The position numbers were made by a program, and so were the translations under genes. A stretch of 64,000 nucleotides of DNA from Methylophaga sp. GTDB taxonomy: Bacteria; Pseudomonadota; Gammaproteobacteria; Nitrosococcales; Methylophagaceae. Below are positions 1 through 45,252 of this stretch, piece after piece. Within the stretch, counting starts at the first letter, position 1. The number at the start of each line of letters is the position of its first letter. Under the pieces are notes generated by a model, which was not told the DNA's origin, did no database searches, and worked only from the letters and a program-made list of their open reading frames with translations. Location of the stretch: assembly GCA_002733505.1 (NCBI GenBank), contig NVVW01000009.1, positions 1-64,000 of the forward strand, given 5' to 3'.

Positions 1-73
1 TTTTCAGTGGCGCTTAGTGAAAGTGCTATCATGTCTATAGCATGATCTCTTTGCAGGAATTTGCAAGCTTTTT

Positions 74-97
74 CTGCAGTTTCAATGATCACGGGTA
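74..97 (+). repeat. Right end of a dispersed TACCC/GGGTA inverted-repeat element
   Basis: The sequence tgcagtttcaatgatc followed by acgggta and TA matches the right terminal repeat of the element at 45072-45252. No left end is visible, so the rest of this copy either precedes the window or has been lost. The remainder of 1-319 holds no gene I can support; besides this repeat it contains only the hairpin at 273-306. Confidence 0.6.
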
Positions 98-272
98 TAA
101 ATGCTATATCTCTTGAGTTTAAATTAATTTGTGGCAAGCGTGACTCTCTCTAAAAGCACAAAACAGTACCGTTGAGTAATCAAGTATTTGGGATGAACCG
201 GTGCTGGATCCCGTTTTTGCCATTAAGCCTGTTTTTAAGGAAGAGCAATAATGCTGGGGGCCTTTTTCTTTG

Positions 273-4176: not shown

Positions 4177-4772
4177 ATACACCCATTAGAATCGTTCTAA
4201 TCGCTATTATTATGTCGGCGATATTAAGCGGATGCGGGACTACGCCCAACAGTAATTACTACTTGTTAAACAGCAACGCATCACCAACACCTATAGGCTT
4301 AAGTCCATCGCTAGGTGTGGGCCCTATCACTATTCCTGATTACCTTAATCGCAATTCTTTTATCTATACGCTGGGTGACAATAAACTGCATATTGCTAGA
4401 TTTGAACGCTGGGCAGAGCCTTTAGACACCGGCATTATGCGTGTTATCCAGTTAAACTTGGCTTCTTTATTAAACACTCAAAATGTGCAGAGCTACCCTT
4501 GGTCTGGAAGCACGCGTCCTGAATACGGTGTTGAAGTGTCGGTATTGATTTTAGATGCCAATGATACGCAGGCAAAATTAACCGCTGAGTGGCATATTTA
4601 CAGACCTCAAAGCAATGAGACGGTGATGCGAAGAATAAGTGAATTGCAACAGCCAATGGCAGAAGGCGCTATTGCCGCAAGTGATATTGAACCCGCCTAT
4701 AGTAAATTATTTTTCCAATTAAGTGAGCTTATTGCGAAAGCGATTGCTGAAGATATTAAACTCTACCCATGA
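4173..4772 (+). CDS. PqiC-like ABC transport auxiliary lipoprotein
   Basis: 199 residues with a signal peptide and lipobox LSGC (Cys21), followed by the ABC_trans_aux pattern (YYLL near the mature N-terminus, then LGVGPITIPDYLNR and FERWAEPL). Such lipoproteins are outer-membrane partners of MCE transporters. The start overlaps the MCE stop and has AAGGA upstream. The last two codons and the stop (tac cca tga) lie inside the left end of the dispersed repeat at 4764, so the native C-terminus has probably been replaced. Confidence 0.87.
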   Translation: MNTPIRIVLIAIIMSAILSGCGTTPNSNYYLLNSNASPTPIGLSPSLGVGPITIPDYLNRNSFIYTLGDNKLHIARFERWAEPLDTGIMRVIQLNLASLLNTQNVQSYPWSGSTRPEYGVEVSVLILDANDTQAKLTAEWHIYRPQSNETVMRRISELQQPMAEGAIAASDIEPAYSKLFFQLSELIAKAIAEDIKLYP

Positions 4773-4925
4773 TCATTCAATTTGCAAAATTTATAGGTCA
4801 TCCCCGATGACCTTACCCAGTCGATCTGAGCACAAGTTTATTGGGGATCTATGGCGGCAAAACTAGACTCCCGCTTAAAACATGAGGGAGTGATGAAAAA
4901 GGTAAACCTGCATTTTCAAACATAG
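4764..4925. repeat. Degenerate copy of the dispersed TACCC/GGGTA element
   Basis: The left end tacccatgatcattcaat matches the family terminus. The interior (cccagtcgatctgagcacaa, then gactcccgcttaaaacatg) aligns with the copy at 14201-14391. The right end (cctgcattttcaaa) has lost its GGGTA. The left boundary falls in the last codons of the upstream lipoprotein gene. Confidence 0.65.
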
Positions 4926-5025
4926 CAATAAGACGAACTAAGCGCTGTAGTTAGTGTCACATTTAAGTTAGACTAAAACGCGCTAAGTTAACAATTACCC
5001 ACTTATTAAACCTAAGGATCACCCA

Positions 5026-14200: not shown

Positions 14201-14391
14201 TATCAAAACTACTTGGAAATACATTTAAAATATCTGTCATTGCCGAGTTCTTACCCCGTCGAGCTGGGCACAAGCTTATCGGCAACCTGACCGTTTAAGG
14301 TAACTAAAGGAGGTTTTTGCCTTGGACTCCCGCTAACAACATGCGGCAGTGACCAATGAAGAGAAAACTGCGACTTGAATGGTCACGAGTA
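14201..14391. repeat. Copy of the dispersed TACCC/GGGTA element, diverged
   Basis: The right end cttgaatggtcacgagta, then TA, matches the family terminus with one change in GGGTA. The left end (tatcaaaactacttggaaat) resembles the other terminal version seen at 37687 read in reverse. The interior cgtcgagctgggcacaagct matches the copy at 4764-4925. It fills most of the cysI to 14443 gap, which otherwise holds nothing I can identify. Confidence 0.6.
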
Positions 14392-14442
14392 TAAGTTCAT
14401 AAATAAATTGCATGCCATCGTAAAAAAAAGTACTATATTACT

Positions 14443-14880
14443 ATGCGTTTCTCTCACAAATCCAGACAGGTAAAGCTACTATATAGTCTCTTGCTTGCTC
14501 TGTTATTGTTGTTTTCTCAGGATCTAACGCTACATATTCATGATCTGCCACACAGCCATGACAACTATTTTGAACATAACCATAGCGCTGATGGTGGTGG
14601 CAGTTATCACAATCATATCAGCAAGGCTCATTTTGACCATGGTAGTTCATACCATGATCATCATAATGGCTTTATACTGGAATTTGATGTCAGCTCCGAT
14701 GGTATATTAAAAAGTATTACTAATAATCCTCTCGTCTTAGCTTTATTGAGCTTTATGTTTGCCTTGGTATTATCTGCCCCTTCGCGCCTTGTGGTGCAGC
14801 GTTACCAGCAAAGTAAAACTGTCCTCTATAAATATTATCTGCTTTCTCCGCCTTTAAGGGCACCACCTCAATACTTCTAA
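14443..14880 (+). CDS. Small His-rich membrane protein, possibly metal-binding
   Basis: 145 residues with a hydrophobic N-terminal segment (about 10-26), a loop crowded with histidines (about 30-75: HIHDLPHSHD, HNHSADGG, YHNH, YHDHH) and a second hydrophobic segment (about 95-113). I do not recognise a named family. It precedes a His-rich RND adaptor and pump on the same strand, so a periplasmic metal-buffering or sensing role is plausible but inferred. No clear ribosome site precedes the ATG. Confidence 0.6.
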   Translation: MRFSHKSRQVKLLYSLLLALLLLFSQDLTLHIHDLPHSHDNYFEHNHSADGGGSYHNHISKAHFDHGSSYHDHHNGFILEFDVSSDGILKSITNNPLVLALLSFMFALVLSAPSRLVVQRYQQSKTVLYKYYLLSPPLRAPPQYF

Positions 14881-15046
14881 AACTGATCTATTCAGCTAGT
14901 GCTACTGGCTCCATACTTGTGTTACTTGGGAATGGGTTTTGAGCAGGCACTACTTGTCTCACTCAGCAATATTCCATGTTCTCGTTGCCACGCACAACAA
15001 TAAGCAATAGGACATTTCCAGAATTTGTTTTAGGAGAATTACCATT

Positions 15047-15124
15047 ATGCAGTTTTTACCATTACGCCGATTTAACACAGTTGCATTGCGGCTATTAGCT
15101 GCCCCCTATCAGCCTCCTCAATAA
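15047..15124 (+). CDS. Possible 25-residue peptide in the gap before the RND adaptor
   Basis: ATG at 15047 has TAGGAG 10 bases upstream and opens a short frame (MQFLPLRRFNTVALRLLAAP, then YQPPQ). It could be a leader peptide or the broken start of a lost outer-membrane factor gene, since the pump locus has none. The rest of 14881-15300 shows no gene or repeat I can support. Confidence 0.2.
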   Translation: MQFLPLRRFNTVALRLLAAPYQPPQ

Positions 15125-15300
15125 TAGAATGAATTTTGTAAGAGGCAATTTTCTTAACAAACAAAGCTGGTTGAATCCGGTCTATTGCTGATGAATATTT
15201 ATTACAGCACTTTTGAAACAGGAATTGTCATTCTAAAACTGGCATTTGAAACCTGTTTTACACCACTACAATTGGATAAGATTATCACAGGAATTAATCA

Positions 15301-16980
15301 ATGAAAACACACTGCCAGAGAAACCTAACAATAAAAACTTTATTTTGGGCACTTATTTTTCTACCCCTAATAATAAGTATAACTAGCTATGCTGGATCTG
15401 ATGATGACGATCACAGCCATGATCCTTCGCATGGCGTGATTGATGATGTTAAAAACTATTTTAAACATATTTTTGAGCATGATCCTCATGACGAGAATGA
15501 GAATGCTCACGGCGCTGAGAATGACCATGACAAAGATGATACCACCATTGCGATCACTGATTTCACTGATTTCACCGAGCTGTTTGTCGAGTTTCCAGCA
15601 CTGGTGCTAGCACACGAATCAGTCTTTATTATCCACCTGACCCGGCTGGATAACTTTCAACCTATAAGTAGCGGTGTAGTCACCCTGACCCTCAGTGGTG
15701 GTGGTGTAGAAACTGAAGTATTTAGTATAAACAAACCTGATATACCGGGTATTTTTCGATTAGCAATTTTGCCTGTACACACAGTAAGTCGCCAGCTAAA
15801 CCTGCACTTCAAGGGTGAAGAGATAGATGTTATACACCCATTGGGGATCTATAAGGTGCATCCATCACAAAATGAGGCAGAAATACAAACTATCATAGAA
15901 GAAGCCCCTGTTGATGCCATTTCCTTTTTGAAAGAACAACAGTGGCAGCTTGATTTTGCGGTGACACCAGCCGTTATAGCTCAGCTACGGCAAAGCATTC
16001 AGGCTACTGGTAGCTTACGTCCACGGGCAGATGGTGAGGTTCATCTGAGCGCTGTGAGCACAGGACATTTGCGTTCCAAAGGCAAATTCCCATACCCTGG
16101 AATGCAGGTCGAAGCAGGGCAGTTACTGGCAGATATTACACCCCGACTTGGCACAGGTGTCGATCTGTCCACCCTGAAAGCGGCTGTTGACAAAGCGCGT
16201 TCAACGCACAACTTAGCAAAACAGGAACGCCAGCGTCTAGCAAAGCTTTGGCAGGCAAAAGCGGTAGCCAAATCGCGGCTACTTAAAGCTGAGAGCGCCG
16301 AAGTTATTAGCAAAACAGAACTGAACACTGCCATGCGTCGTTATCAACAAATTATCGGTGGCACACAAAATAATCTTACTATCCCCATTATTGCACCTAT
16401 CAGCGGCATATTGGCACAGGTAAATGTGGCTTCAGGTCAATATGTAGATGAAGGCGATGCCCTGTTTCATATCGTTAATCTGGAGCGATTATGGTTGGAA
16501 GCACGCATTGCCGAAGCCGATATCGCACTGTTGCAACAACCCTCTGGTGCTTGGTTTACCTTAACCGGGTTTGACAGCAGTTTTAATACCTTCGATCTGG
16601 ACGGCTCTATGGTGGCGTTGGGAGGTGCTATCGATGCTGTCTCACGCACTGTACCGCTGATTTTCGAATTTAACAGCCCCGATCAACGCTTACGCAGTGG
16701 TATGTTTGCCACGGTGCGAGTTTATACCGGCAAGACTACACATGGCGTGGTGGTTCCCACCTCTGCTATTTTTAACGATGGTGGTCAGGAAGTGGTTTAC
16801 GTAATGCTGGGGGGAGAAACCTTTCAGCGCCGCTTGGTGCGATTAGGCATGCGTGATGGTGAGCAAGTTCAACTTATCAGTGGCGTAGAAGCAGGTGAAA
16901 GAGTTGTTAGCCGAGGCGCTTATTCAGTTCGACTTGCTTCTGCCGACAGTGCAGAAGTAGGTCACGGACATGCGCATTAA
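15301..16980 (+). CDS. RND efflux periplasmic adaptor (CusB/HlyD type), His-rich
   Basis: 559 residues with a signal peptide, then a His/Asp-rich stretch (about 33-80: DDDDHSHDPSH, HDPHDENENAH). The adaptor core follows, with the biotinyl-lipoyl half motifs near 245 and 365 (PYPGMQVEAGQLL and IIAPISGILAQVNVASGQYV) and a beta-barrel. It ends GHGHAH. The length exceeds typical adaptors because of the N-terminal extension. It would bridge the RND pump to an outer-membrane channel and bind metal through its His clusters. GGAATTAATCA precedes the ATG. The pump gene follows after 15 bases. Confidence 0.87.
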   Translation: MKTHCQRNLTIKTLFWALIFLPLIISITSYAGSDDDDHSHDPSHGVIDDVKNYFKHIFEHDPHDENENAHGAENDHDKDDTTIAITDFTDFTELFVEFPALVLAHESVFIIHLTRLDNFQPISSGVVTLTLSGGGVETEVFSINKPDIPGIFRLAILPVHTVSRQLNLHFKGEEIDVIHPLGIYKVHPSQNEAEIQTIIEEAPVDAISFLKEQQWQLDFAVTPAVIAQLRQSIQATGSLRPRADGEVHLSAVSTGHLRSKGKFPYPGMQVEAGQLLADITPRLGTGVDLSTLKAAVDKARSTHNLAKQERQRLAKLWQAKAVAKSRLLKAESAEVISKTELNTAMRRYQQIIGGTQNNLTIPIIAPISGILAQVNVASGQYVDEGDALFHIVNLERLWLEARIAEADIALLQQPSGAWFTLTGFDSSFNTFDLDGSMVALGGAIDAVSRTVPLIFEFNSPDQRLRSGMFATVRVYTGKTTHGVVVPTSAIFNDGGQEVVYVMLGGETFQRRLVRLGMRDGEQVQLISGVEAGERVVSRGAYSVRLASADSAEVGHGHAH

Positions 16981-16995
16981 TTAAAAGGAAGAAAA

Positions 16996-19203
16996 ATGAT
17001 TGGATCCAGCATTAAATGGTCTTTAAAAAACCGCCTATTCGTTATCGCCACTGCCTTGCTGTTATTACTTTGGGGTAGCTACCAAACCAGCCAGATGCCC
17101 GTGGATGTGTTTCCAGATCTGACCGCGCCTACGGTCACCATTGTCACCGAAGCACATGGTATGCCTCCAGAAGAAGTAGAAACCCTTATCACACTGACAA
17201 TTGAAAGCGCACTTAATGGCGCTTCCGGTATTCGCCGGATACGTTCTAATAGCCAAGTTGGATTTTCCACGGTCTATGCCGAGTTCGAATGGGGTACTGA
17301 TATTTATCAGGCACGGCAGATTGTTGCAGAAAAACTGCAAACGGTGAGAGCGATTCTACCACGCGATATTGCGCCACCGGTATTAGCTCCGATAGCATCA
17401 GTAATGGGCGATATTATGTTTATCGCGCTAAAGTCTGATAGCCATGATGCCATGGATCTGAAAACCATCGCAGACTGGAATTTACGCCGCCGTCTACTGG
17501 CAGTACCCGGTGTTGCCGAGGTAATTACCAATGGCGGTCAAACTAAGCAATTTCAGGTGCTGGTTAAACCACCTCTACTGGCATCCTACCGTATAGATCT
17601 GACACAAATCACTGCGGCACTACGAACCAGTAACCAGAACTCGTCTGCTGGTTTTTATGTTGAAAATGCTCAGGAATATTTGATTCAAGGGCTGGGAAGA
17701 GTGAATTCTACAGAAGACATTGGCAATACCTTTGTTGCCATGCGCGGTGGTGAACCGATATTAGTACGCCATCTGGCAGAGGTCAAAATAGCACCAGCCT
17801 TGATGCGAGGCATGGCAGCACACAATGGGCAACAAGCGGTGGTATTGGGTATTCAGAAGCAGCCCGATGCCAATACACTGGAACTGACTAGGCAACTGGA
17901 TCGGGTATTGGAAGAGATCCAAGCGACATTACCCACAGGTATGGAGATCGAAACCCATCTTTTTCGCCAAGCTGATTTTATCTCAATATCAATCGACAAT
18001 CTGTTAGCCGCATTGCGTGATGGCGCATTTTTAGTCCTCGCCATTGTCTTCATTTTTCTAGCCAGCGCTCGTGCTACTGTTATCACCTTAATGGCACTGC
18101 CACTGTCTTTACTAGCAGCTTTGCTGGCACTTAATGCCTTAGGCGCAACCATCAACACTATGACCTTAGGGGGCTTGACCATTGCCTTAGGAGTACTGGT
18201 AGATGATGCTATCGTGGTGGTGGAGAACGTTGTGCGCCGTATGCGAGAGAACCTGCGCGCCGAGCAACAGCTGTCAACTCTGCAAATAGCACTGCGGGCA
18301 ACACGCGAGATCCAAAGCCCCATTGTATTCACCACACTTATTATCATTGTGGTATTTATACCTCTGTTTTTCCTCAGCGGTGTGGAAGGTCGCCTGATGC
18401 AACCGCTAGGGCTAGCTTATATTATTGCTCTTGTCGCATCAACGTTGGTCGCCATTACACTAACACCCGTACTGTGCAGTCTGCTACTAAAACACGCCAA
18501 AATAGTTAAAAGCAATACTGATACCCGATTTGTCATCTGGCTTAAAAAAGCGTATATCCCAATACTGGATGCCACCCTAACACGCTGGCGCATCATCACA
18601 TTTTTATCTTTGCTTGGTTTTGTTATCACCGTAACTGCGCTAATTCTAGCAGGGCGTTCTTTTCTGCCTGATTTTAATGAAGGCAGCCTGACGGTCAGTG
18701 TTGTTACTTTGCCAGGCACATCACTGCAACAGTCTAACCAATTAGGGTTGCAGGTAGAGCAGATTTTGCTTTCTCATGCTGAGGTGGTCTCGACTGCCCG
18801 CCGCACTGGGCGTGCTGAACTTGACCCCCACGCCATGAGCATCAATGCCTCGGAAGTTGAGGTCAAGCTGAAAATGGGTGAACGCAGTAAAGAGCAATTT
18901 CTCGCTGCTTTGCGTGAGGATTTTAAGGCTCTACCCGGTATCAACATCGTTATCGGTCAGCCCATTTCTCATCGCATCGACCATATGCTTTCAGGAACGC
19001 GGGCAAATATTGCAGTGAAAATATTTGGTCATGATTTATACCTACTACGCCGCCTTGCCGAGCAGATCAAAGGCATTGCCGAAACCGTGCCTGGCGCAGT
19101 GGATGTTGCGGCGGAACTACAGGCTGACATCCCCTTTATTACCGTGGAATTTAACCGTTATGCTATAGCCCGTCATGGTCTCAGCGTAGCCGAGCTAAGC
19201 TAA
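16996..19203 (+). pseudogene. RND efflux pump (CzcA/CusA-like), N-terminal part ending at an in-frame stop
   Basis: 735 codons of an HME-type RND permease: first helix, porter domain (MPVDVFPDLTAPTVTIVTEA), and transmembrane block with ALGVLVDDAIVVVENVVRRMREN. The frame ends at TAA 19201-19203 after VAELS, but the same frame continues directly with TIETAFFGQSVSRV, the expected next piece. Without this stop the gene would encode about 1035 residues, the usual length. A CAA or AAA to TAA change would explain it. Metal substrate is inferred from family and His-rich neighbours. AAGGAAG precedes the ATG. Confidence 0.85.
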
Positions 19204-20103
19204 ACTATTGAAACAGCGTTCTTCGGACAGTCGGTATCAAGAGTATTACAGGGTGATGTCAGTTTTGATCTGGTGGTGCGTTATGACACCAGTGTACTAG
19301 ATAACTTTGATGCCTTGCGTAGCACCTTGATTACCACCCCATCTGGAGCACAACTACCGTTGCATAGCCTGGCTAATGTGCGCAAAGATCGCGGTGTGAA
19401 TATTATTAGTCGTGAAAACGTACAACGCAAAATTGTAGTTATGGTCAATGTGGCCGAGCGTGATCTGGCTAGCGTAGTTGAGGATATTCGCGATGCCGTA
19501 ACAGCCCAAATAAACCTACCCAGCGGTTATCACATTGAATATGGCGGTCAGTTTGAAAGTGCGCAGCAAGCAACACGTACCTTAACATTGCTAAGTGCAG
19601 TCGCACTTCTTTTAGTATTTATGTTGCTGTTTGTTGCTTTTCATTCGGCACGCGATGCAACGCTAGTCATGCTCAATCTACCCTTAGCATTGATGGGAGG
19701 GGTAGCTGGTATGTATCTAGGGGATGGCATACTGTCTGTCGCCACACTGATCGGCTTTATCGCACTGTTTGGCATTGCAACGCGCAATGGCGTTATCCTT
19801 ATCGCACATATCCATAATCTCGTGCAATACGAACAAATAGATAATCTCCATCAAGCAGTGCGCCAAGCCGCCATTGAACGCTTGGTTCCCATTCTAATGA
19901 CGGCACTGGCAACCGCCTTTGCGCTGATGCCACTGGCATTGAGTGCGGGGCAACCCGGTAGTGAAATTCAAGCACCGATGGCGATGGTGATCCTATTTGG
20001 GCTACTAAGCTCAACGGCGCTCAACATGATCGTGGTACCTGCACTTTACCTACGCTTTGGCTCTATACCCGTGATCATTCAATCTGTGAAGATTCAGGAC
20101 TAA
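19204..20103 (+). pseudogene. RND efflux pump, C-terminal part after the in-frame stop
   Basis: 299 codons in the same frame as the preceding part: the second porter region (TIETAFFGQ through INLPSGYHIEYGGQFESAQQA) and the last transmembrane helices (MLFVAFHSARDATLVMLNLPLALMGG, FIALFGIATRNGVILIAHI). No ribosome site supports a restart; a GTG at 19273 is only an internal codon. The last twelve residues (IPVIIQSVKIQD) and the stop are encoded by the left end of the repeat element at 20066, so the original C-terminus is lost. Confidence 0.8.
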
Positions 20104-20254
20104 GATAGGAAGTTAGAGCAAGGCGCAATGTGCGGGCAATGACTAGTCCTTTATGTCTAGGGATGGACTGTAGGCAGAAAATCTAGGAGCAATTTTCTGT
20201 GTCAAGCCTTACAAAGCTTCCGCTCCTGCTTACGCCTCTTACCTACATCCCTGT

Positions 20255-20884
20255 CATAGGTAGGATCTTAAGAAGTTGAAATAAAGCTCAAATCATGATC
20301 AAATAGGATAGCCGCACTAGGTGATAAGCAGACAAAATATTTGCCCTTAAATATTAAGGTACTTCAACCAACTTACCGAACAGAACATAAAGTACAAACC
20401 ATTCCATAATCAATTGGTGAAACCTGAACTGGCAGAGCTAATGAAAGAGGTGGCTGACAGGGTATTTAGCCACTGGATAAATGAGGTACTAGAGTACACT
20501 AAAGATAATTTAACTCAATTTGATAAAATATTGATCCAAGATGGTAGCTCAATTATGGTTAACCGAGCATTATAAGGATATTTATCCTGGTCGATTTTCG
20601 CATACCTGCCCTGCAGCGATTGAATTGCATGTGACATTAGATCTAAAGAAAGGATGTTTTGAAAGAGCCAGTATTACGCCAGATAGCTATTCGGAGCGAA
20701 ATGAATTACCCACATTAGCATCGTTAGAAGGACAACTTCTTCTGGCCGATCGTGGTGATTACCTCAGTAAAAATGCTACCCGCTCACATCCCAAAAGGGA
20801 TCGAATAATAGGGGTTTTACAGTATGGCCTAGAGCCAATTATTAGATAGGTACCTATTTGAAATTTCTTAAGTACCTACCTATG
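20255..20884 (+). mobile_element. Decayed IS4-family insertion sequence with 10-bp target duplication
   Basis: The ends cataggtagg (20255) and cctacctatg (20884) begin imperfect inverted repeats of about 35 bases that include CTTAAG. The decamer acatccctgt lies immediately outside both ends (20245-20254 and 20885-20894), a target duplication of the size usual for IS4. At 630 bases it is roughly half a normal IS4 element and carries only a broken transposase, so it cannot move by itself. Confidence 0.85.
20360..20849 (+). pseudogene. IS4-family transposase remnant, frameshifted
   Basis: The first frame (20360-20578) reads FHNQLVKPELAELMKEV and FDKILIQDGSSIMVNRAL before a stop. The next frame (about 20571-20849) continues KDIYPGRFSHTCPAAIELHV and LEGQLLLADRGDY. 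Together they match the DDE-type IS4 transposase, with the first Asp in QDGSS and the second in LLADRG. A single frameshift near 20570-20578 separates them. The C-terminal catalytic Glu region is missing. Confidence 0.8.
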
Positions 20885-21474
20885 ACATCCCTGTAGGCAA
20901 CGCAGTGCTGGTTTTCTAGATTTTGGTCTGAATCTTTACAGATTGAATGAGTATGGGTATATACCCAGACTGAGCCACCAAATCCTTCAGCTTCTCGCAT
21001 ACCTAAATGAATAGTTGAAATATAACTATTACCCTCAATATCATAATAACTTATTTTGACAGGGAGTTCAGACTCATATTCTAAATAGTCGGCATCAGAC
21101 AGCTTCTCCGTAGAATAAGAAAAAAAAGCAGTTTTCACATCTTTATTATTTAATAATAGTGGGATTTTATTTGATGATGAGAAAGTCGATAGAACCCTTT
21201 TTTTATTTTCAGATTTAATGGTGTCTGAAAGAATCTTTTCAATGTCCAGTTTGGCAGCAGAAAGTGTAATGTTTACAGCAGGTCTATTGCCACTATTGTA
21301 AACAGTCAAGTCAAATATCACCACTCCTTTACTACTACTATTCTGGGTTATTTCGGCGGTTACAATTGGTCTATGCGTTGAAAACCAAAAACGTCGAGTG
21401 CTGTGAAGCGAAACAATAGAAATAATAATTGCCAGAATTGAGAATATTGTTCCAATTTCAATCATATTTTTCAA
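20854..21474 (-). CDS. Unknown membrane-anchored protein with repeat-derived C-terminus
   Basis: 206 residues with one N-terminal membrane segment (about 5-24, IGTIFSILAIIISIVSL) and a soluble part resembling an Ig-like beta domain (VVIFDLTVYNSGNRPAVNI). I do not recognise a function. About the last 35-40 residues (from VYTHTHSICKDSD to YLRNFK) are encoded by the right end of the repeat element and then by the right inverted repeat of the IS4 remnant, so the true C-terminus was displaced. The gene may still be functional if the soluble domain ends before that point. Confidence 0.55.
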   Translation of the reverse strand: MKNMIEIGTIFSILAIIISIVSLHSTRRFWFSTHRPIVTAEITQNSSSKGVVIFDLTVYNSGNRPAVNITLSAAKLDIEKILSDTIKSENKKRVLSTFSSSNKIPLLLNNKDVKTAFFSYSTEKLSDADYLEYESELPVKISYYDIEGNSYISTIHLGMREAEGFGGSVWVYTHTHSICKDSDQNLENQHCVAYRDVIGRYLRNFK

Positions 21475-21546
21475 TCGCCTTAATTAATAACAATCATCGA
21501 TAATTATGCCTAAACATTATTACTTTTCTTATTATGTTCAGCTATA

Positions 21547-22479
21547 TTAAAGACCTCGCCCAAAACTCAACTCAAACCGCTCAGCAAACTCAGCCATAGT
21601 AAATGTATGATTCTGTGTACCATGTTGTTCGATTTTAATCGCACCTAATAATGAGGCTATGCGACCTGTTATTTCCCAATCTTTACCGTGCATAATGCCG
21701 TGTAATAATCCGGCGCGATAGGCATCACCACAGCCGGTGGGATCGGCTAGTTTGTCTACTTTTGCACATGGAATATCTAGGCGATTGCCTTCGGTGTAGA
21801 TATAGGAACCTTCACCGCCTCGGGTGATGATAAGTGCTTCTATTTGTTCGGCTATTTCATTGGGTGATAAGCCTGTTCTGTCTTGGAATAATTGGGCTTC
21901 ATAGTCATTTAAGGTGATATATGTCGCTTGTTTGGCGAAGTTTAATAAGTCATCGCCATCAAACATCGGTAGCCCTTGACCGGGATCGAAGATAAAGGGG
22001 ATACCGGCTTCATGGAGTTGTTGGGCATGTTGAATCATGCCGTCACGTCCATCTGGTGAGATGATTGCCAATGTAATATCTTTCGCTTCGCTGATCAGTG
22101 TTTCATGGGCTAGGTTCATTGCTCCGGGGTGGAAGGCGGTGATTTGATTATCATCCATATCGGTGGTGATAAAGGCTTGGGCGGTGTAACTGCCGTCTTT
22201 AACATGCACATGGCGGCGGTTGATGCTGTGTTTATCCATCCATGTGGCATAGCTGGTAAAGTCGCTACCTACAGTGCTCATTGGAATGGGATCATCGCCT
22301 AGTAATTTTAGGTTATAAGCAATATTGCCGGCGCAGCCACCAAACTCACGGCGTAAGTTGGGCACTAAGAATGATACATTTAATATATGCACTTTGTCGG
22401 GCAGGATATGATTTTTAAATTGGTCGGGGAACACCATAATAGTGTCGTAGGCGAATGAGCCACAAATAAGTGCTGACAT
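21547..22479 (-). CDS. PfkB-family carbohydrate kinase (adenosine kinase-like)
   Basis: 310 residues with PfkB signatures: GGCAGNIAYNLKLLG near 47-61 and DPTGCGDAYRAG near 248-259, the latter holding the catalytic Asp and anion hole. The N-terminus (MSALICGSFAYDTIMVF) is typical of the adenosine-kinase-like group common in proteobacteria. The substrate is not certain from sequence. It follows rnd on the same strand after 4 bases, so the two are probably cotranscribed. Confidence 0.85.
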   Translation of the reverse strand: MSALICGSFAYDTIMVFPDQFKNHILPDKVHILNVSFLVPNLRREFGGCAGNIAYNLKLLGDDPIPMSTVGSDFTSYATWMDKHSINRRHVHVKDGSYTAQAFITTDMDDNQITAFHPGAMNLAHETLISEAKDITLAIISPDGRDGMIQHAQQLHEAGIPFIFDPGQGLPMFDGDDLLNFAKQATYITLNDYEAQLFQDRTGLSPNEIAEQIEALIITRGGEGSYIYTEGNRLDIPCAKVDKLADPTGCGDAYRAGLLHGIMHGKDWEITGRIASLLGAIKIEQHGTQNHTFTMAEFAERFELSFGRGL

Positions 22480-29434: not shown

Positions 29435-29558
29435 TATACTTAAAATTACTTACCTATTGTCATTCCCGCATGTTTTTAGTGGGAATCTTATGCTGTGTAA
29501 ACATAGATTCCGGCTAAAAGCTACCGAAACGTAGTAACCGCAGGATCAATGACGGTAT
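29435..29558. repeat. Degenerate repeat related to the TACCC/GGGTA family
   Basis: The segment gtcattcccgcatg with tttttagtgggaatc, then gattccggctaaaagc, resembles the internal hairpin of the copies at 4764 and 39562. The left edge (tacttaaaattactt) resembles the family terminus, but no GGGTA end is left. It lies between rplI and dnaB. Confidence 0.4.
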
Positions 29559-37248: not shown

Positions 37249-37369
37249 ACGTTTAATATCTAATGAGTAATTAATTAAAACAATAATACATGAAGATGCA
37301 TGATTTAGTAGGATTTAAAACTGTTTTAGGAGTAGCCCCAGCCACACCTCCAAACAAATATTTTGTATA

Positions 37370-37528
37370 TACCCGTAATCATTCAAGTTGCGGTTTTTTA
37401 GTGCTCATAATGGATGGGCTAGCAAGGCATAATAGTAATGTAATAGTCGTTCTATTGCTTACTATTATAACGTAGATAGCGTATTCAGTATGGGTGCTAA
37501 AAATCTGCAACTTGAATGATTACGGGTA
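37370..37528. repeat. Copy of the TACCC/GGGTA element (first of a tandem pair)
   Basis: Left arm tacccgtaatcattcaagtt and two more bases (37370-37391) is the exact reverse complement of the right arm (37507-37528). TA lies outside both ends. The interior contains a second inverted repeat, attactatt-like sequences around 37430-37465. The gap from lpoA to 37810 consists mostly of this pair. Confidence 0.85.
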
Positions 37529-37530
37529 TA

Positions 37531-37687
37531 TACCCGTGATCATTCAATCTGTGAAGATTCAGGGCAAAAATAGAAAGCCAGAGCTACGTTGCAATGCTTG
37601 ACAAGGACTAGTCATTGCCTTCACATTACGCCTTGCTCTGACCTTCGTGCTAAGCTCTGAAATCTGCATCTTCAAGTAATTTGGGTA
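37531..37687. repeat. Copy of the TACCC/GGGTA element (second of a tandem pair)
   Basis: It begins two bases after the previous copy, sharing one TA between them. The left end is identical to the copy at 20066 for 33 bases. The right end (ttcaagtaatttgggta) is a variant terminus also seen at 39667. The interior motif 37605-37635 (ggactagtcattgcc and on) is shared with 20119-20149 in reverse and in part with 45170 onward. Confidence 0.85.
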
Positions 37688-37810
37688 TATATAAATGAAA
37701 AAAATAAAATTTTAGTGGAATAATGCTTGCTCTTGTTGTATTTTCACGGGCTATTTATTATTTATAAATAGCAACATTATTTTAAGATAATTTAGGAGTA
37801 AGTCATTTTG

Positions 37811-38383
37811 ATGAAACAACAAATAAGATTATTAGCCATTTTTTTACTAACACTTCCAGTTGTTGTCATGGCGGCAACAGCACCGACTCGTCATGTCGTA
37901 GAAGAAAAAATCGTAATCAATGCAGACCCTGCGGCTGTCTGGGAAGTGGTTAAGGATTTTGACGGTATTCATAACTGGCATCCGGCGATTACTGCTACTG
38001 AAGCTACTGGTGGTAATGAACCAGGCGCTAGTCGCACAATAACATTGGCTGATGGAAATACCATTACTGAAGAGTTAAAAACGTTTAGTGAAGAGAAACA
38101 GTCTTTCAAATACAGCATTAAAAATATGAGTTCTGTAGGGACTATTGATGATCATGGTGAAACGTTGGATATCCCTGTTATTCCTGTTGCTAAATACGTT
38201 TCATTCATTACTGTAAAAGCAGTGGATGGCGGAACAGAAGTAACGTGGAAAGCAAAGTTTACTCGCGCTTATGGTGGTCATCATGAGGTGCCGGCTGAGC
38301 TGGGAGATGAGGTTGCTGTGAAGGCTGTAACAGATATTTATAAAGCTGGGTTAGGAAATCTCAAAGCCATGCTGGAAAAATAA
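37811..38383 (+). CDS. Exported SRPBCC (START-like) family protein
   Basis: 190 residues with a signal peptide (to about 22, VVMAATAP) and a SRPBCC ligand-binding fold (EKIVINADPAAVWEVVKDFDGIHNWHPAI, then GTEVTWKAKFTR). The ligand is unknown. The ribosome site AGGAG is 12 bases from ATG 37811 and 9 from an in-frame TTG at 37808, so the latter is an alternative start. It lies between the repeats and htpX, in the region that separates lpoA from rsmI. Confidence 0.82.
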   Translation: MKQQIRLLAIFLLTLPVVVMAATAPTRHVVEEKIVINADPAAVWEVVKDFDGIHNWHPAITATEATGGNEPGASRTITLADGNTITEELKTFSEEKQSFKYSIKNMSSVGTIDDHGETLDIPVIPVAKYVSFITVKAVDGGTEVTWKAKFTRAYGGHHEVPAELGDEVAVKAVTDIYKAGLGNLKAMLEK

Positions 38384-38425
38384 TTTCAGTCTATTTTTTG
38401 TTTGAGCGTATCGTAAAATGCAAAG

Positions 38426-38449
38426 CGACCTTAATTTTAAGGTCGTTTT
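38426..38449 (+). terminator. Rho-independent terminator of the SRPBCC gene
   Basis: A perfect 9-base stem cgaccttaa (38426-38434) and ttaaggtcg (38437-38445), separated by TT, is followed by four T residues. It lies about 45 bases after the stop. Confidence 0.75.
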
Positions 38450-38613
38450 ACTGGTATCTTAAAGTAAGTTTTTGGAGTATTGCATTTTCAGGCCATTTAA
38501 CCATAGCTGATAGTCGGACTGTAATTAATGTTCGAAAATTACGAATTTAATAGTGGGAATATTCGAATTAACTTGTTATTAGATGTGCAGTATGATCGCT
38601 ATCTGATATCATT

Positions 38614-38634
38614 CATCTTGAATGATCATGGGTA
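38614..38634 (+). repeat. Right end only of a TACCC/GGGTA element
   Basis: Sequence catcttgaatgatcatgg, then gta with TA after it, matches the family right terminus. I see no left end in 38450-38613. It lies 29 bases before htpX and may be a solo end. Confidence 0.6.
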
Positions 38635-38663
38635 TAAATAGCAAAAACAAGGCAGGTTAAAGT

Positions 38664-39554
38664 ATGAAACGAATGTTCTTATTTATTATGACTAATATTG
38701 CCATCATGGCAGTGCTGAGTATTACCTTAAGGTTATTAGGCGTCGATAGCATTTTGGCTGAAAATGGTTCAGATCTTAATATTCAAGCATTAGTCATACT
38801 CTCTGGCGTAATTGGTTTTGGCGGCTCGATCATTTCATTGTTCATGTCGAAATGGATGGCAAAACGTATGACGGGTGCAGTAGTAATTACCCATCCAAAG
38901 ACTAATATTGAGCGATGGCTTGTGAGCACTGTAGAAAAACAGGCAAAAATTGTTGGGATAAAAATGCCAGAGGTAGCCATTTTTCCATCACCAGCAATGA
39001 ATGCCTTTGCCACTGGCGCATCTAAAAACAATTCACTAATGGCCGTATCACAGGGGTTATTAGATACTATGTCACAAGGTGAGGTAGAGGCCGTTGTTGG
39101 CCATGAAATGAGCCACATAGCGAATGGAGATATGGTGACTTTGGCCTTGATTCAAGGTGTGGTGAATACATTTGTGGTTTTTGTCTCTCGTATTGTAGGA
39201 CATATCGTGGATCGTGTGATTTTAAAAAACCAACGTGGGCATGGTATTGGATATTTCGTAACGGTGATGATTACACAGGTTATTTTATCTATTTTGGCCT
39301 CTACCATTGTGATGTACTTTTCCAGAAGGCGTGAATTTATTGCAGATACGGGAGGAGCCGATTTGGCCGGTCACCAGAATATGATTAATGCTTTGAAGCG
39401 CTTAGGGCAGGTGGAAGAGGTTGAGCCTTTACCAGAACAGATGGCCGCTTTTGGTATTAACGATAAGGGTGGCATAATGGCCTTGTTTTCATCTCACCCT
39501 CCTATCGAAGCAAGAATTAAGGCTTTGGAAAATCGGGTTGTTTCCAGAAGCTAG
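38664..39554 (+). CDS. htpX: Protease HtpX, membrane zinc metalloprotease
   Basis: 296 residues with two N-terminal helices, the zinc motif HEMSH near 147-151, the third ligand region RRREFIADTGGADLAG near 221-236, and two more helices between them. It degrades damaged membrane proteins at the cytoplasmic face. Placement between lpoA and rsmI is unusual. Confidence 0.95.
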   Translation: MKRMFLFIMTNIAIMAVLSITLRLLGVDSILAENGSDLNIQALVILSGVIGFGGSIISLFMSKWMAKRMTGAVVITHPKTNIERWLVSTVEKQAKIVGIKMPEVAIFPSPAMNAFATGASKNNSLMAVSQGLLDTMSQGEVEAVVGHEMSHIANGDMVTLALIQGVVNTFVVFVSRIVGHIVDRVILKNQRGHGIGYFVTVMITQVILSILASTIVMYFSRRREFIADTGGADLAGHQNMINALKRLGQVEEVEPLPEQMAAFGINDKGGIMALFSSHPPIEARIKALENRVVSRS

Positions 39555-39561
39555 AGTTATA

Positions 39562-39667
39562 TACCCAAAATCATTCAATCTGTAAATTTTCGCTCTTCCG
39601 TCACTCCCGCTAAAAGCATGCGGGAGTGACGAAAAAGGTAAACCTACATCTTCAAGTATTTTGGGTA
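39562..39667. repeat. Short copy of the TACCC/GGGTA element with a strong central hairpin
   Basis: The left end tacccaaaatcattcaatct and right end cttcaagtattttgggta are family termini, with TA on both sides. The centre is a perfect 11-base stem, gtcactcccgc (39600-39610) and gcgggagtgac (39620-39630). At 106 bases it is the shortest complete copy and looks like an internal deletion of the 4764 and 14201 type. It could act as a terminator for htpX. Confidence 0.8.
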
Positions 39668-39794
39668 TAGACTTGAACCACGGAATCAAAAGTGTGCTTG
39701 TGTAGGAAATGAAATAGCTTAAGGAATATATGAGTTCATGACTTGTTCAGAGGCTCCTTAACTGAATAATAATTTACAAATAAGGCGGTGCCCC

Positions 39795-44089: not shown

Positions 44090-45080
44090 TCAGATTATAA
44101 AAAACTTATTGCTAGCAATGACCAAACCCTTTCAGATAAAGGAAGACATCACTTATCTTTCAATAAGCATTGGTATTGCAATCTATCCCGATTATGCTAC
44201 CGATGTTACGTCATTATTAAAGAGTGCCGATCAGGCTATGTTTTATGCAAAGGAAAAAGGCCGAAATTGTGTTCACCATTTTACCCCTGCTATGGAGACA
44301 TCAGCTATAGAGAGAAGATCCCTTATTCAAGATCTTCGCTTTGCCTTAGACAAGCAAGAATTTGAATTATATTATCAACCTATAGTTGACTTGAACACAA
44401 ATGAGACATACAAAGCGGAAGCTTTAATCCGCTGGCATCATCCCGAAAAAGGAATGATATCGCCTGAAATTTTTATACCTTTAGCTGAAGATACGGGATT
44501 GATTGTTGATATAGGAAATTGGGTTTTCAAACAAGCTGTTCATCAATCTCAACAGTGGCGTAAGCGTATGCATCAATACTTTCAGATCAGTATTAATAAA
44601 TCTCCAAAACAATTCAATAAGGAAAATAATCACCATGAAAATTGGCTAGATTACATGGCTGAAAAGCAATGTCCAGCTGACAGTATTACGGTGGAAATTA
44701 CGGAAGGTGTTTTGATGGATGCTAATAGTATTGTTACTGAACAGTTACTTTCTTTTCGAGATGAAGGGATCGAGATCGCACTTGACGACTTTGGTACAGG
44801 CTACTCATCATTAGCCTATCTTAGAAAGTTTGATATTGACTATATAAAAATTGATCGCCAGTTTGTCCAGCATGTTGAAACAAATAGTGATGACAGGGCG
44901 CTATGTAAAGCCATTATTGTAATGGCGCATGCTTTAGGAATAAAAGTCATTGCGGAAGGAATAGAAACTACAGCTCAAAAGGATTTTTTGTTCAATTCAG
45001 GCTGTGATTTCGGTCAAGGGTATTTATTTTCTAAACCAATACCTGTTGACCAGTTTGAGAAATTGATACTATACCCATAA
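44045..45080 (+). pseudogene. GGDEF C-terminal half and EAL domain of the broken signalling gene
   Basis: In the +1 frame the GGDEF domain resumes (IDQIIKNLLLAMTKPF, SISIGIAIYPDYA, ADQAMFYAKEKGRN) and an EAL phosphodiesterase domain follows (about 300 codons) with KAEALIRWHHP, EITEGVLMD and DDFGTGYSSLAYLRKFDIDYIKID. The first ATG of this frame (43995) reads unrelated residues and has no ribosome site, so this part is not a separate gene. A repaired gene would encode about 949 residues. The stop and last two residues (YP) are given by the repeat element starting at 45072. Confidence 0.85.
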
Positions 45081-45252
45081 TCATTGAAACTGCATGATTC
45101 AGCAAGCTTATCAGCTTGCCCTACGGGAGCTCAACACGGATGCCAGCACCGCGTTGCAAGGCTTGAAAAGGACTAGTCATTTCCTGCGCCTTGCGCCTTG
45201 TCCTGACATCCGTGTTGAACTCTGAAACCTGCAGTTTCAATGATTATGGGTA
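45072..45252. repeat. Complete reference copy of the TACCC/GGGTA inverted-repeat element
   Basis: The left arm starting tacccataatcattgaaact (45072-45094, 23 bases) is the exact reverse complement of the right arm (45230-45252). TA lies just outside both ends (45070-45071 and 45253-45254), as expected for insertion into TA. At 181 bases, with no coding capacity, it fits a miniature inverted-repeat element. The interior shares ggactagtcatt (45170 on) and gccttgtcctgac with other repeats in the window. Confidence 0.88.

Follow-up and report, generated by a model that had tools for sequence, protein, structure and literature searches.

Miniature inverted-repeat elements of a Methylophaga genome and a resident IS630 element with matching ends

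RUP of Streptococcus pneumoniae is a miniature inverted-repeat element (MITE) of about 100 bp, which is intergenic, occurs in more than 100 copies, uses TA as its target and is paired with IS630-Spn1 (PMC2229807). The Correia/NEMIS elements of Neisseria have terminal inverted repeats (TIRs) of 24 bp and many small intergenic copies (PMC2229807). For QMITE1 and QMITE2 of Coxiella, present in about 120 copies that often overlap the 3' ends of genes, no autonomous partner is known, and they are regarded as ancient and immobile (PMC5896051). In pneumococcus, small elements inserted in one another form clusters (PMC10969869).

The elements of Methylophaga sp. described here form a RUP/IS630-Spn1-like family, of a kind already known, which is unusually dense and has an intact transposase at hand. 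The likeness to RUP, whose ends also match an IS630-family element, lies in the way of working and not in the RUP sequence. Unlike RUP, the present family has at least four interiors on two end types, ends that trace to several IS630 lineages in one genus, and lengths from about 35 to 311 bp. With Correia/NEMIS, compared by description only, it shares the long TIRs and the small intergenic copies, and the genome has yielded an autonomous partner bearing the same ends. The QMITEs are gammaproteobacterial MITEs as well, but their direct repeats are not the simple TA seen here. None of the papers searched for the end sequences contains them.

The window, that is, the whole stretch of 64,000 nucleotides under analysis (contig C37:1-64000), belongs to a genome of 2.37 Mb in 43 contigs, which was searched. 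The following features were identified in the window.

1-98, minus strand: autonomous IS630, left end (98 bp at 100% identity with the 1109-bp element), inside which the contig begins.
4764-4931, plus strand: D-type MITE, left end intact, right end decayed (boundary approximate).
14201-14391, plus strand: decayed D-type MITE, left end TATCAAAACTACTTGG placed by eye, right end TACTCGTGACCATTC.
20066-20959, plus strand: A-type MITE with two nested small double-hairpin inserts and one IS remnant of about 630 bp.
20152-20200, plus strand: nested 49-nt double-hairpin micro-element, a mutated copy, in the MITE core.
20255-20884, strand not given: degraded IS within the 20066 MITE, inverted ends CATAGGTAGG.
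37370-37528, plus strand: C-type MITE of 159 bp, paired ends from the tolerant scan.
37531-37687, plus strand: A/B chimeric MITE of 157 bp, paired ends from the tolerant scan.
38600-38634, minus strand: decayed mini-copy of about 35 bp with two near-abutting ends, left boundary by eye and uncertain.
39562-39667, plus strand: D-type MITE of 106 bp, interior the CGTCACTCCCGC hairpin, paired ends from the scan.
45072-45252, plus strand: MITE with a B-type interior that has an internal deletion, TA outside both ends.

The copy at 45072-45252 starts with TACCCATAATCATTGAAACTGCA and closes with ...GGGTA, and its 23-bp inverted ends contain no mismatch, exactly as the earlier note had read them. In all, eight related TACCC copies, some of them decayed, and one IS end lie in the window. 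The copies that had been listed at 4764, 14201, 20066, 37370, 37531, 38614 and 39562 stand, some as decayed copies, whereas position 74 proved to lie in the IS630 left end (bases 1-98) and was rejected as a MITE. The candidate at 29435 was likewise rejected, being a bare GTCATTCCCGC...CAATGACGG repeat without TACCC ends. This repeat lies at 29451-29555, upstream of a DnaB-like gene, and is shorter in the related genome G023 and absent in G014; hairpins resembling it make up the interior of the D-type MITEs.

The long feature at 20066-20959 is a single copy lengthened by internal insertions. A 10-bp direct repeat, ACATCCCTGT, borders the degraded IS within it (20245-20254 and 20885-20894), and this IS may be IS4-like, to judge from resemblance only; a Pfam search with its 102-aa ORF gave no match. 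When relatives were searched at the DNA level with window 14392-21600, the matches were mainly to repeats, and no ortholog that could serve for the 20066 copy came up. The copies at 37370-37528 and 37531-37687 adjoin via a single TA (GGGTA-TA-TACCC), and the latter is A-type in its left part and B-type in its right part. About 2.5 kb at 37284-39791, with a polyketide-cyclase-like gene and htpX, lies between MITEs; the sister genomes G023 and G014 are collinear but lack this segment, with 57-95 bp in its place, and it has possibly moved as a MITE-flanked unit. The htpX neighbourhood around the 39562 copy was not collinear in 16 relatives.

The ends fall into two types, a-type ends TATACCC-NNN-ATCATT and a second type TATACCC-AAN-TACTTG. 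With no more than one mismatch, TATACCCNNNATCATTNNA occurs 286 times genome-wide. For the second end type, TATACCCAANNTACTTGNA, the count is 84, and neither pattern gave a hit when reversed. The consensus TACCC-N-GATCATT proposed earlier is too narrow, since that 13-mer gave little excess. In a sample of 462 kb (20% of the genome), partly picked around query hits so that the density is biased upward, there were 139 ends and 46 inward-facing pairs, compared with 5 and 0 in the reversed-sequence control. A looser scan of the sample gave 52 paired copies, and TA stands on both sides of 43, with a one-TA background of 7.5% (binomial P about 4e-88). The elements are short, non-coding, bounded by TIRs and multicopy, with size classes of about 106-190, 156-161, 262 and 311 bp. 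Although ORFs of at least 120 aa cover 85% of the sample, none of the 52 copies is centred in one, and nine overlap an ORF end; the copies are intergenic, often at gene ends. Fifteen cases of elements abutting via one shared TA were counted in the sample.

The interiors are of at least four types, two of which (A and B) share a core around AAGGACTAGTCATT, where at least two types had been supposed. Type A is 158 bp long and type B 262 bp, the latter with 94% mean identity; type C, of 159 bp, has a core distinct from A/B, and type D consists of CGTCATCCCGG/CGTCACTCCCGC hairpins. One further copy, named E, has a CGTCATTGCGA...CAATGACGG hairpin interior, and chimeric copies occur among the types. 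Within types A, B and C the copies differ by about 6-23% on average. That such unrelated hairpin cargoes bear the same ends suggests that the end sequence alone decides mobilisation.

For five interior types, and for the 45072 copy among them, insertion is proved by sites that are empty in sister species. At the orthologous position in G014, which is otherwise collinear with the window, the 45072 copy is absent. The EAL-domain gene ends with EKLMDKS* in G014 and is cut by the MITE to EKLILYP* in the window, and when the MITE and one TA are deleted in silico, the window gene end is restored to EKLILNKSP*. Conversely, a C-type MITE of G014 has an unoccupied site in the window; once joined, the flanks from G014 give an alignment of about 600 bp that is ungapped at the junction. 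Clean empty sites were also found for an A-type copy (L044:624-829) in G008, a D-type copy (L042:1789-1953) in G014, an E-type copy (L049:19500-19642) in G008, and a B-type copy of G023 (L196) in G008. A further G023 copy sits in a dispersed repeat, uninterrupted copies of which exist in the own genome and in G008. For another B-type copy (L057:15160-15421), the corresponding site in G023 is unoccupied and differs slightly at the junction. Most of the clean empty sites have one TA, so the target TA is duplicated on insertion, and the proposed TA insertion is borne out both here and by the TA flanks of the sampled copies.

The insertions also rewrite protein ends. LYP* closes two unrelated genes of the window, at 4772 and 45080, because the MITE end TATACCCAT(A/G)A carries a stop codon within the TIR; in the former case it is the PqiC-like gene upstream of the 4764-4931 MITE that takes its stop codon from the element. 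A dispersed intergenic repeat around TATGAGTTCATGACTTGTTCAGAG..CCTTAA was also noted, at window 39729, L050:9374, L051:12377, L125:8496 and L189:9034, and its copy L189 is interrupted by a MITE in G023.

A full element with the same ends does exist in the genome. A PF13358 profile search revealed two complete IS630 elements of 1109 bp encoding a 365-aa transposase (NCBIfam transpos_IS630, 1.6e-65; Pfam DDE_3, 3.3e-36), in which D-34-E spacing (DD34E) could be read from the protein. Its left end, TACCCGTGATCATTGAAACTGCA, is the same as MITE ends, and matches the ends of the 45072 copy at 21 of 23 positions; its right end is TACCCGTAATCCTTCAATTTGCA. The earlier suggestion of an IS630/Tc1-type mobiliser agrees with this intact element, with the correction that the tip of the transposon lies within the window, at 1-98. 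Besides the two full copies, there are 13 IS630 end fragments of 80-390 bp, most of them lying at contig edges. Their identity is 100% throughout, which implies roughly ten or more identical copies and recent transposition, and explains the assembly breaks at several contig edges. A comparison of the IS630 with the rest of the genome, MITEs included, gave matches of 24-33 bp at the ends and, on C5, a stretch of 117 bp at 78%, and nothing else. Since mostly these 24-33 bp of ends are in common, the data do not support an origin of the MITEs from the resident IS630 through simple loss of its interior. Three IS630 copies adjoin a B-type MITE via one shared TA, at L032:1380-2804 (C28), L031:1-1179 (C22) and L009 (C20); such a composite might move as a unit.

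Counts of a-type ends in 29 congeneric genomes are 286 (own genome), 101, 100, 96, 38, 34, 33, 30, 20, 14 and 12, and close to zero in the rest; in other genera there are hardly any. At E<=1e-20, five of the 29 gave a transposase match, namely the own genome, G008, G023, G021 and G001, of which G008, G023 and G021 are MITE-rich and G001 is poor, and outside the own genome the matches are fragments or contain internal stops. G028 has 96 ends and no transposase match in an assembly that is 77% complete. The genus offers a natural gradation, from an intact IS630 with hundreds of copies down to no copies, in which the link between IS and MITE is traceable via empty sites. The IS630 ends of the relatives include both MITE end types, the second type beside the transposase genes; their right ends resemble this second type (in G008, TATACCTAAAATACTTGAAGATGCAGG), and the B-type MITE ends are nearer to the G008 right end than to the resident IS630.

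Further afield, a transposase 70% identical occurs in an uncultured gammaproteobacterial MAG, with one end of each type, and the scan of named genomes gave only one related transposase. Two plasmid IS630s, of E. coli (NZ_KR779901) and Vibrio (NZ_CP026320), encode transposases 53-56% identical. Both have the left end TATACCCGTGATCATTGAA and a right end ...ACTTGAAGATGCAGG, the E. coli one (53% aa identity) reading TATACCCATTCAACTTGAAGATGCAGG on the right; a full copy of the plasmid IS630 was not found in complete E. coli genomes. Because the MAG, sister-species and plasmid IS630s all carry them, the ends are a signature of long standing in this IS630 group. Among plasmids only the ends of the B-type MITE find a match; its interior does not, and so seems local.

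It is very probable, in our view, that the MITEs are moved in trans by IS630-group transposases, the resident intact IS630 being the likely current driver. The non-autonomous MITEs insert at TA and duplicate it, and transposases of the IS630 group (Tc1/mariner superfamily) would recognise the ends, which begin with TACCC and have about 17-25 bp in common. The ends alone seem to decide what gets mobilised, because the MITE interiors are unrelated to IS630 and of several types. In the IS630 cousins of sister species, the right end corresponds to the second end type, TACCCAAA-TACTTGAAGATGCAGG, which suggests that successive IS630 lineages mobilised the families. The MITE copies are diverged and the IS630 copies identical; therefore most MITE insertions predate the present IS630 burst. 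This divergence, together with the better fit of the G008 right end to the B-type ends, is also what would be expected if the MITEs were relics of extinct IS630 lineages that the resident IS630 does not move, with matching ends due to common descent only. We regard that as rather unlikely, since many MITE ends differ hardly at all from the resident left end, ends are by far most numerous in the genome that has the intact IS630, and the 15 shared-TA abutments, with IS630 itself abutting MITEs, show use of the same kind of target. We infer that the resident transposase mobilises the MITEs, and likewise which lineage drives which family.

The elements could also be considered as conserved structured RNAs, or terminators or attenuators, at orthologous places. 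A single strand of the 45072 copy folds at -90.2 kcal/mol (z = -11, from the fold computation), and the copies are intergenic and often at gene ends. However, the strong fold follows from palindromic DNA, as any palindrome folds so, and the flanks are TA. Orthologous conservation as structured RNA, which the earlier note had named as the outcome that would speak against it, was not what was found: at the positions tested, sister species have no copy, and within the window the Rfam covariance models match RNase P only. An RNA role is thus very improbable, and as the primary nature of the elements it is excluded by the empty sites, while a secondary effect of the MITEs on transcripts is possible. 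Still less credit is due to REP/BIME-like repeats moved by a RAYT (Y1 HUH) transposase. Such repeats would likewise be palindromic, intergenic and present in more than 100 copies, but true 23-bp TIRs, flanking TA at both ends and a DDE IS630 to match are foreign to REPs, and TA duplication is seen at clean empty sites. The TA flanks and the empty sites led us to reject both readings.

Several MITEs hold an insert of 45-50 nt with two hairpins, whose loops, CATGGATG and GCAGGAGC, are constant, while the stems change in a compensatory, covarying way. A second mobile element, far smaller (about 45-50 nt) and conceivably of an undescribed structure-directed kind, may use the palindromic MITE cores as landing platforms, a proposal that we make tentatively and with some doubt; it may be newer than the finding of the MITEs. 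An Rfam search with this micro-element gave no family match. Its motif occurs 17 times in the own genome, with no control hits, and 9-13 times in two sister species. Its sites include MITE cores, CGTCATCC-type hairpins of G008, the loop of another copy and a tRNA gene spacer in G019, and the insertions have no visible target duplication. Examples are window 20152-20200, L213, L219, L224, L203, L208 and L225.
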